A stretch of 64,000 nt of DNA from Aphanocapsa sp. GSE-SYN-MK-11-07L (GTDB lineage: Bacteria; Cyanobacteriota; Cyanobacteriia; Thermosynechococcales; Thermosynechococcaceae): the NCBI GenBank assembly GCA_019359715.1, contig JAHHGS010000079.1, forward strand, positions 1-64,000, written 5' to 3'. Every line of letters starts with the position of its first letter. Position 1 is the stretch's first letter. Shown in pieces: positions 47,047 to 50,882 of this stretch. The notes under the pieces are model-generated. The model did not search any database, was not told the origin of the DNA, and saw only the letters and a list, made by a program, of their open reading frames with translations. Both the position numbers and the translations under genes were made by a program.

Positions 47047-47919
47047 ATGAAAGCATTAGTTCGTTGGGGTGCAATCCTCAGTTTGGTGGGCGGTACATTA
47101 GTCGGCCCGTCTATGATTCAGCAAATGTCGGCCATGGCTTTACCAGAAGAGCAAGTGCTCAAGCAGTTGACCAATGTGCCACTGTTTATGATCACAAATC
47201 AGCAAGGACAACCCCTGACTTACGCTGCGCCAAATCCGGCCACTCCGAATGATAAAACCAAGCAGGTTCAGGTGTTCACCTTTTTTGTCAGTCAGTCAGA
47301 TGCCCAAACGGCACTGACGACTCTCAAGAATGGCAAGCCGGACTTGGCTAAAGTTGCAAAAGTTAGTCCGGCCTCTCTGAGCGGTGTGATTCAATTTGCT
47401 CTCAACGGCAAGAAGCAAAACTCTAATGTTGGGGTGGATATTATTCCTAACCAGCAGCAGCTCCAGTCGGCGGTCAGTATTCTCAAGCAAAGTGGAGAGT
47501 TAGTTGACAAGGATGGCAAGCTTGTCACCAAAGCAGGTCAGCCTTTCCAAGGGGGAACACCTCTGTTCTTTGTGGCCGATAGCAAAACCGGCGGTCCGAT
47601 CGCCGTTGAAATTACTGGCAAAGAAAATGGGCAGGACAAGAAAGTGCGACTGGTGCCTTTTTACTTCAGTCAGCAAGATTTGCAGAGTGAGCTGGAGCAA
47701 GCCAAGAAGCAGCGTCCGGATCTCGCTACTAGCACTAAGATTAATGTTGTGATGCTAGATACGCTGGTGGCAACGCTACTCAGTAATAACGACCCAACGG
47801 TGTCTGAATTTCAGCTTGTGCCTCCGCGCGAGTCAATTGACTTCCTGCGCCAACAGCAGCCTGCTAAGGCTCCCGGTGCGCCTGTTCCTGCGGCACCCGC
47901 CCCTGCGCCCAAAAAGTAG
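47047..47919 (+). CDS. Tic22-family protein
   Basis: A 290-residue secreted protein with a signal peptide (residues 1-31, MSAMA), two tandem Tic22-like halves (VPLFMITNQQGQPLTYAA and GTPLFFVADSKTGGPIAVEI) and a Pro/Ala-rich tail. In chloroplasts Tic22 is an intermembrane chaperone; the cyanobacterial homologue acts in the periplasm and thylakoid lumen and is essential where tested. AGGAG stands 7 bases before ATG. A strong hairpin follows its stop. Confidence 0.88.
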   Translation: MKALVRWGAILSLVGGTLVGPSMIQQMSAMALPEEQVLKQLTNVPLFMITNQQGQPLTYAAPNPATPNDKTKQVQVFTFFVSQSDAQTALTTLKNGKPDLAKVAKVSPASLSGVIQFALNGKKQNSNVGVDIIPNQQQLQSAVSILKQSGELVDKDGKLVTKAGQPFQGGTPLFFVADSKTGGPIAVEITGKENGQDKKVRLVPFYFSQQDLQSELEQAKKQRPDLATSTKINVVMLDTLVATLLSNNDPTVSEFQLVPPRESIDFLRQQQPAKAPGAPVPAAPAPAPKK

Positions 47920-47941
47920 ACTGTGGGGCTTAGCACTAGGT

Positions 47942-47984
47942 AAAACTGTTAAAGGCTGTGCTAAGCGCAGCCTTTAACAGTTTT
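47942..47984 (+). terminator. Rho-independent terminator after the Tic22 gene
   Basis: Arms 47942-47958 (AAAACTGTTAAAGGCTG) and 47968-47984 are perfect reverse complements and extend inward by G-U and G-C pairs. The plus-strand stem ends in TTTT. It begins 22 bp after the Tic22 stop. Confidence 0.78.
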
Positions 47985-48033
47985 AAACAGATTTTGTCGG
48001 ATTGCGATCGCTATCAATGACCCTTGCGAGATT

Positions 48034-49002
48034 ATGCTCTTAAATCATCGTTTCCTGCTGCGGTTAATCACTAACCTGGTGATTTTCGCCTTGGCGTTAT
48101 CCAGCCTGGGTGTTTTGCTCTGGATTGTGGATGAGTTTATTGGTTGGGATATTTTACCGGATGCGCTCAGCATTTATGTCCGCGCAATTGTGATTGGGGT
48201 TGGCTGGGTGACAATGACGCTAATTATTGCCCATATCCTGCTGAGCCTAACCTTGTTTGCTGAATCAACAGCTCATCGCGCTCAACTGCCCGACTTTCAG
48301 ATTTCAGCTCAATTAAGCCGAAGGCTCAAACGCATTCTGCTGGTGGCTGGGCTGATTAGCATTTTAGTGATTGCTGGCTTGCAGGTGACTGACATGGTTC
48401 GGAAGAATCTTGCTCAGCAAGCCGCTAAGCAACAAGCCATCTAGGAACAGCAAAAGGAGTTTGATCAGGCCAAGCAAAAATTTAATCAGATCCAGCAAGC
48501 TTTAGATCAATCCCTGCCCAAAATATTGCCCTTATTCACCCCTCCGCTCTTGGCGGCGATCGCAACCAATCAAATTCCAGCCGCTGATTTACGCCAACTT
48601 CTACAATCTGTGACGATTTCTTTTCCAAATCAGCCCGCCCTCGCATTGCTGATCCCGGCTGATCCTCCCTACAAATATTCCAGAATTGACCAGCAAGCGA
48701 TCCAGTTGAATCGCAAAAGCAATGCATTTTTTCTCAGTCCCCAGCGATTTGTCGGTTTTCCGAGCAGTTTAGAGGCGAAAGTTGTAGACCAGCTTTTCAG
48801 TGGACAAAATCCCAAATTTACCAGCGGCTTGAACGGCGTCTTTATCAACAATACCCAACCCAGCTCTTGGGGAGTGCTCAGGTATAACAATCGAGTGATT
48901 GCCCTTGTTTACCTTGGCGTGGACTATCAATGCCCTGGCCCGTCAGAATTTGTCAAAGCACGATGTGTTCACCCAGGCCCAGTCTCCCTTCATGCCAACT
49001 GA
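48034..49002 (+). pseudogene. Membrane-anchored hypothetical protein, interrupted by an in-frame TAG
   Basis: From ATG 48034 the frame encodes three hydrophobic helices (about residues 9-32, 49-77 and 104-121) and a coiled-coil start, reaching TAG at 48442-48444. The same frame then continues without a stop for 185 codons to TGA 49000-49002: a Gln/Lys-rich coiled coil, then a compact domain (SVTISFPNQPALALLIP, WGVLRYNNRVIALVYLGVD). The two halves are clearly one gene. One base change would restore it. It may be a recent pseudogene, make a 136-residue fragment, or be read through at low level. The coiled coil after membrane helices recalls the HpsJ-like gene at 8.3 kb, but the C-terminal domain is not recognised. 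Confidence 0.75.
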
Positions 49003-49026: not shown

Positions 49027-49791
49027 ATGCTCAGCCACAGGAACTTACCTCAGCGACAAAACTTATCGCGGCTACAGCGGATCGCGATCGCTCCTGAGCA
49101 ACGCCAGCAGCAGCAGATTCAGCTTACCCCAGCCCAGCACCACTATTTAACTCGCGTTTTGCGGCTGCGGACGGGCGATCGATTTTTGGTGCTAGAGTCC
49201 CTAGGAGATCGCTGGTTGGCCGAGCTTGCGGGCAATTGTGCCCAACTGTTAGAACTGGCTCCAGCCGAGACAGAGTTATCTACGGCAGTGACCCTGTTGG
49301 CAGCCTTACCAAAGGGCAGCGGCTTTGAGCAGGTCGTCCAGCAGGCGACAGAGTTGGGGGTAACGCAAATTATGCCGTTAATGAGCGATCGCACGCTGCT
49401 CAAACCGAGTCCGCAAAAAGTAGAACGCTGGCGACGGATTGCTCAAGAAGCGGCGGAGCAGTCGCAGCGGCAGCAAGTGCCGATCCTGACTGACCCGGTC
49501 ACGTTTGAACAAGGGATAGCAACTCGCCAGGGCTGGCTGTGTGTGACGGAACCAGAGGCCGAGCATTTATGGAATTGCTTGCAGGGTGAACTAGGGGCAG
49601 AAATTGCGATCGCCACCGGCCCCGAAGGCGGTTGGACTGAGGCGGAAGTTCTACAGGCGGTTGCCGCTGGCTGGCAACCAGTTTCTCTGGGTCAAAGAAT
49701 TTTGCGGGCCGTCACCGCTCCGATCGTTGGGTTATCTTTGGTTGCTGCCAGATTAGAATTGGCACAGACAGCAAAAAGACCCGAAACATGA
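49027..49791 (+). CDS. rsmE: 16S rRNA (uracil-1498-N3)-methyltransferase
   Basis: RsmE methylates U1498 of 16S rRNA with SAM. The N-terminal PUA-like part (HHYLTRVLRLRTGDRFLVL) and the SPOUT knot (GPEGGWTEAEVLQA and SLGQRILRAVTA) are characteristic. Length 254 is normal. Its stop overlaps the ATG of the next gene (ATGA), so they are translationally coupled. Confidence 0.93.
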   Translation: MLSHRNLPQRQNLSRLQRIAIAPEQRQQQQIQLTPAQHHYLTRVLRLRTGDRFLVLESLGDRWLAELAGNCAQLLELAPAETELSTAVTLLAALPKGSGFEQVVQQATELGVTQIMPLMSDRTLLKPSPQKVERWRRIAQEAAEQSQRQQVPILTDPVTFEQGIATRQGWLCVTEPEAEHLWNCLQGELGAEIAIATGPEGGWTEAEVLQAVAAGWQPVSLGQRILRAVTAPIVGLSLVAARLELAQTAKRPET

Positions 49792-50882
49792 TTCAAAGTG
49801 TAGCTGAAGCCCTGGAACGTCAAGACTATTTAGAAGCAGCCCGTCTACTGCAAGAGCTACCGCCATCAGACCCTTGGGTGATCCTCTACCAGAACCAGCT
49901 CCAAGAAGCAAAGGGGGAGTGGGAGGTAGCAGAAGAAGCTTACCGCCAACTGCTGCGCATGGATCATGGGCGTAAGCTGACGACTGAGGCGCGGCAAGGC
50001 TTGCAGCGGATAGAGATATTGAGGCAAGCCCAGCGCCAGCAAGCCTTAGACCAAGCCAGCGCCATTCCAGGCAGTCAAGAACTAGGAATGCTGGTTTTAG
50101 AAGCAATTGCAGCCGAAGCAAAGACCGAAGCAGCCAAAAACTTTGCCCGGATCATGAAGCTAGAGCCTTATCTGACGCGGCTGTTGTTGCCGAGTCGCGG
50201 CTGGCGGCTGTATCGGTCTGCCCCCTTGGCAGAGATTCAAGTCTACGGCCAAGAATTACGAGAGGCTGGAATTCCCCTGTTTTGGTTGCCCTTGGCTGAG
50301 ATTCAACAGATTGAGGTGTTAGAAGTCAGCCATTTTGCTGCCGTCACTCCCAAAGCCGCAGTTATTTGCACTCACAGGCAAAAGCCAGAGCCGTTTGGGT
50401 TTGAGTTTGAGTGGTCAGAAGTCAGCCAGCGGGTGGAAGGACTGGTGCCGATCTTTGAACTTGTGGTTGAGCAAGACCGCCAGCGCAAGATTCAGCGCAA
50501 AGAGCAAATTCAGGATCATGCTCAATTTTGCGATTTGCACTTGCCGAGCCGAAACACCATTTTGCGAATTTATCATGGCGCTTACCAGTTTCAAAAAGGG
50601 ATCAGTCTGATGCCGAGCCAAAGATCGGGTCAGACGATCGACCAGGGCACCTCTTGGGCCCGCTGGCAAGGCTTACAGGCTTTGTTCGATCGCTACTTGC
50701 CGACTGCACCCGTTTGGTCAGAGTTCACTCCCTTTGGCGAATCTGTGCTTGACCAAACCGATTTGCTGGATCGGATTCACCCTCACATCAAGCTGCTGCG
50801 CCGCCAAGACAGCTATTGGGATCAAGCGTTTCAGCTCTATAGCTGTTTGGCTTTCTGCCACGCTAGCGGTTTGACTCGTTAG
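49788..50882 (+). CDS. TPR-containing hypothetical protein
   Basis: A 364-residue soluble protein. The N-terminal 100 residues form TPR-like helices (ALERQDYLEAARLLQEL, AEEAYRQLL), then comes a longer globular region (about 130-364) with no recognised domain but strand-like segments such as AAVICTHR and LRIYHGAYQ. It is coupled to rsmE (ATGA overlap). Similar rsmE-adjacent genes occur in cyanobacteria; the role is unknown. Confidence 0.72.
   Translation: MIQSVAEALERQDYLEAARLLQELPPSDPWVILYQNQLQEAKGEWEVAEEAYRQLLRMDHGRKLTTEARQGLQRIEILRQAQRQQALDQASAIPGSQELGMLVLEAIAAEAKTEAAKNFARIMKLEPYLTRLLLPSRGWRLYRSAPLAEIQVYGQELREAGIPLFWLPLAEIQQIEVLEVSHFAAVTPKAAVICTHRQKPEPFGFEFEWSEVSQRVEGLVPIFELVVEQDRQRKIQRKEQIQDHAQFCDLHLPSRNTILRIYHGAYQFQKGISLMPSQRSGQTIDQGTSWARWQGLQALFDRYLPTAPVWSEFTPFGESVLDQTDLLDRIHPHIKLLRRQDSYWDQAFQLYSCLAFCHASGLTR

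Follow-up and report, generated by a model that had tools for sequence, protein, structure and literature searches.

The reading frame at positions 48034-49002 (forward strand) of the window, by which we mean the whole 64,000-nucleotide stretch of DNA that was analysed, translates into 136 residues, a TAG (amber) codon at 48442-48444, a further 185 residues and a terminal TGA, which bears out the original prediction of a 322-codon frame interrupted by a single internal TAG. The 5′ part of this split gene (48034-48444, +) encodes a hydrophobic N-terminal part of 136 residues that ends at the TAG and aligns with 12 intact homologous loci. The 3′ part (48445-49002, +) continues in the same frame with 185 codons and the TGA, its first in-frame start codon being a TTG at 48526.

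Upstream lies a gene for a Tic22-like protein (47047-47919, +; Pfam PF04278, E 1.5e-20), and between it and the split gene there is a hairpin of 21 uninterrupted pairs (47941-47985, +; −32.1 kcal/mol, z −6.21) which is probably a terminator, though it is absent from the results of a consensus terminator scan. Downstream, 24 bases past the TGA of the split gene, starts a gene for an RsmE-type 16S rRNA (uracil1498-N3) methyltransferase (49027-49791, +; NF008697, 254.9 bits against a cut-off of 234), which is overlapped by 4 bases by a following gene without family match, the pair spanning 49027-50882. The family's other 28 genomes contribute 29 rsmE loci, and this pair was present at 16 of them, which belong to 15 genomes, one with two such loci. 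At none of the 29 was tic22 or the split gene detected in the flanking sequence, which covered about 1.5 kb and less at some loci. Because the rsmE pair recurs at other loci without them, the split gene appears to be an accessory one placed ahead of a more widely kept pair. Likewise, none of the window's neighbours was found in the flank examined at the 12 homologous loci.

The single internal stop contrasts with the other frames of 48034-49002, which contain 22 and 12 stops in the forward and 16, 19 and 17 in the reverse direction. Mononucleotide shuffles of the same segment gave a mean of 14.7 stops, and one stop or fewer was reached in 0 of 20000. GC contents at the first, second and third codon positions were 0.56/0.35/0.53 before the TAG versus 0.56/0.38/0.49 after it, and the order 1 > 3 > 2 was the same in the split gene and in three neighbouring genes that were measured. 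That the sequence is coding on both sides of the TAG, as had been proposed, is confirmed by homologues which align from residue 1 to residue 322 across the stop in the same frame. In a DNA search of its own genome the split gene was found at one place.

As for the family of the encoded protein, Pfam and NCBIfam searches with the whole protein and its halves gave only weak matches far below the curated cut-offs, which we treated as chance. Two relatives had no Pfam match at E values up to 0.1, the window protein and one relative had no PHROGs match at E up to 0.001, and a PDB profile search with an E limit of 1 returned no matches. We infer a cyanobacterial membrane protein with a hydrophobic N-terminal half, a helical linker and a C-terminal part that is probably soluble. 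A scan of genome contigs yielded two full-length cyanobacterial relatives, L002 and L003, with 57-58% identity, and a profile built from these and the window protein was searched against 388 genomes of the class. Thirteen genomes matched, including the own genome; ten others had full-length or near-full-length matches with no internal stops, and the remaining two had weak fragments with stops. The full-length relatives are 38-58% identical to the window protein, and the genomes searched for them included none of the same genus.

All 12 homologous loci (L002, L003 and L053-L062) consist of a single uninterrupted frame. They represent 11 distinct proteins, since L053 encodes the same protein as L003 and was dropped before columns were counted. 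Comparison with relatives at the TAG codon, which the original prediction had put forward as a check, showed a stop in none of these 12 full-length loci: the column holds a sense codon in three (L003, L053 and L054) and a gap in the other nine. The TAG sits in a variable linker that is probably helical. The helical character comes from a structure model of L003, in which one long helix (residues 92-167) spans the stop position. The claim that the stop falls exactly at a coiled coil is made plausible by this helix, though not firm, the model being of low confidence with a mean pLDDT of 50.

The two weak fragments, L063 (E 4.4e-4) and L064 (E 7.5e-4), were set aside before the homologous loci were counted. 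The L063 match covers 86 codons with one TAG inside, runs antisense to an open frame of 890 codons and has its stop away from the linker position, and we take it as chance. The L064 match covers 72 codons at 24-41% identity with one TGA and two TAG inside, and we take it as chance or a remnant. Neither has a bearing on the stop position in the window.

The split gene yields ORFs of 136 and 158 amino acids, which speaks for a reading in which the stop produced a stable membrane stub and a C-terminal protein with its own start, both of them functional. We consider this reading highly improbable, given that each of the 12 relatives is unsplit and that a suitable start is missing near the stop. 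The first in-frame ATG, GTG or TTG past the TAG, the TTG at 48526, lies 27 codons on and beyond conserved residues, and inspection by eye of the 20 bases before it revealed no purine-rich stretch that could serve as a Shine-Dalgarno sequence. A purine run does follow the TAG directly, but none of these three start codons comes after it in frame at a spacing that could be used. The window holds four other pairs of long same-frame segments separated by one stop, and in each of them, unlike here, an ORF starts 3 to 30 bases beyond the stop, as expected for two genes each. Two separate genes in relatives, the arrangement that had been named as speaking against one interrupted gene, were not encountered, each of the 12 loci carrying one intact gene. 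Two genes instead of one at 48034-49002 were accordingly rejected.

With regard to decoding, TAG ends 20 of the 54 greedily picked ORFs of at least 100 amino acids in the window, that of the split gene included, and the genome encodes RF1 (TIGR00019 match of 520 bits, cut-off 423). A second TIGR00019 match, of 256 bits and thus below the cut-off, probably corresponds to RF2. Because of this frequent terminal use and the presence of RF1, TAG is an ordinary stop here; neither avoidance of TAG in the window nor loss of RF1, which suppression or reassignment would lead one to expect, was seen.

A suppressor tRNA was looked for in several ways. No CUA anticodon occurred among 50 Rfam tRNA matches, a search that scored 150 of its 265 candidates and in which tRNA-Phe and tRNA-Leu(UAA) were likewise unseen; tRNA-Leu(UAA) often bears an intron in cyanobacteria. 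For two of the 50, which ARAGORN did not report, the anticodon was read from the alignments. A loose CUA-loop pattern gave 247 hits versus 375 in a reversed control and by itself says nothing about a suppressor tRNA, and a strict pattern gave 9 versus 16 in the control. ARAGORN, run on 37 pattern loci (all 9 strict ones and 28 loose ones from among the places listed), found no CUA anticodon. It placed tRNAs at 4 of the 9 strict loci, where the pattern falls in a tRNA-Asp, two tRNA-Leu and one tRNA-Arg.

Two side observations were made on the tRNA complement of this genome. A tight array of nine tRNAs (Asp, Glu-CTC, Cys, Met, Trp, Glu-TTC, Arg, Ser and Ile) lies on contig C22 (L037:7308-8540); several of them duplicate tRNAs from other parts of the genome, and none has a CUA anticodon. 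Such arrays occur in cyanobacteria. On contigs C120 and C37, respectively, there are tRNA-like sequences (L048:134-199 and L050:201-257) reported by Rfam and not by ARAGORN, one with a three-base anticodon loop and one without a D-arm.

These results bear on leaky or regulated readthrough, in which the stop would be real and some ribosomes would pass it, giving the stub plus a little full-length protein. The conserved 3′ half speaks for it, as do bacterial in-frame stops under purifying selection that PMC7918605 reports and reads as frequent readthrough. The in-frame stops suspected of readthrough there resemble the present case in having both halves conserved, but that study focused on stops shared by at least two species, whereas this one was found in a single genome. 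Against readthrough, the stop is conserved in 0 of the 12 full-length relatives, genes in the window commonly end in TAG, and RF1 is encoded. In addition, no CUA tRNA appeared among the 50 Rfam matches, within the scored candidates, or at the 9 strict-pattern hits, and the folding of the 101 bases 3′ of the TAG is on a par with that of shuffles (z 0.16), giving no sign of a stimulatory structure. We regard such readthrough as quite unlikely, and its regulated form, one of the three alternatives first offered for this locus, found no support. A narrower version, a strain-specific and inefficiently terminated amber codon that would give mainly the stub, accompanied by a little of the full-length protein, and be under selection in this lineage, is in our view more improbable still.

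We also compared the condition of the two halves over columns invariant among the 11 distinct relatives. Before the stop the window protein keeps 30 of 31 invariant columns, and the intact L002, scored alike, 30 of 32; after the stop both keep 26 of 28. L003 and L054, which are close relatives of each other, lose 0 or 1. The window protein and L003 were 62.5% identical in the part before the stop and 55.4% identical in the part behind it, and the intact pair L002-L003 was 66.4% and 56.8% identical over the same two parts. In the downstream half there was no excess decay, further stop or frameshift, and relaxed selection was not visible against these relatives, which lie too far off for a useful dN/dS on the last branch. 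Because the downstream half is without extra decay compared with an intact relative, its sequence points to a stop that is recent, or to a base error. A base error, or some residual readthrough, would explain its good preservation equally well.

A base-calling or assembly error, with the gene intact in the living strain, is the main rival, second to a nonsense mutation and ahead of readthrough, which is unlikely. It would account for a lone stop in an otherwise unharmed gene with conserved residues kept on either side, and the assembly is a draft of 159 contigs (5.1 Mb). Counting against an error are a genome completeness of 99.48% and a contamination of 0.31%, although these values are little informative on single bases, and the position of the site in a variable linker tolerant of change. 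Consensus substitution errors are moreover rare relative to real nonsense pseudogenes. On balance we hold an error to be possible but doubtful.

The distribution of the gene was examined within the families concerned. In the family of the window's organism it was matched in 1 of 29 genomes, its own; the 28 others, 19 of which are at least 90% complete, gave no match. Of 36 genomes in the family to which the best match (G091) belongs, 2 matched. The split gene is patchily distributed, part of the searched genomes being incomplete, and because of this patchiness, including the lack of any match among the other family genomes searched, it looks dispensable.

Among the three alternatives of the original prediction, a recent nonsense mutation fits best. 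We assign a probability of about 0.72 to this reading, in which an accessory gene of patchy distribution, coding for a membrane protein, would recently have been split in this strain by a nonsense substitution in the variable linker. Given an encoded RF1 and the common use of TAG as a stop, translation would end at the TAG, presumably efficiently, and the product would be a membrane stub of 136 residues that lacks the C-terminal part and is probably useless. Provided that the base is real, the locus would be a young pseudogene or an allele on its way to being lost.

The locus resembles bacterial nonsense pseudogenes in its one in-frame stop with homology across it, in its intact relatives and in a stop that these do not share; its frame is interrupted compared with 12 of 12 intact loci, and its downstream half has no independent start. 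It differs from them in carrying a single lesion with no sign of decay, which suggests a very young pseudogene whose dispensability would follow from the patchy distribution. Within the membrane protein family formed with L002, L003 and L053-L062, homology extends over the full length and the window copy alone is interrupted. Since in-frame stops are widespread in bacterial genes, according to PMC7918605, the split gene is an ordinary finding of a kind already known.

Annotations should treat this locus as a single interrupted gene and not as two, a matter of little wider import. It offers a clean, single-lesion example of a very young pseudogene in a patchy cyanobacterial membrane protein family and, if a full-length protein were detected, would let natural amber readthrough be tested in cyanobacteria.
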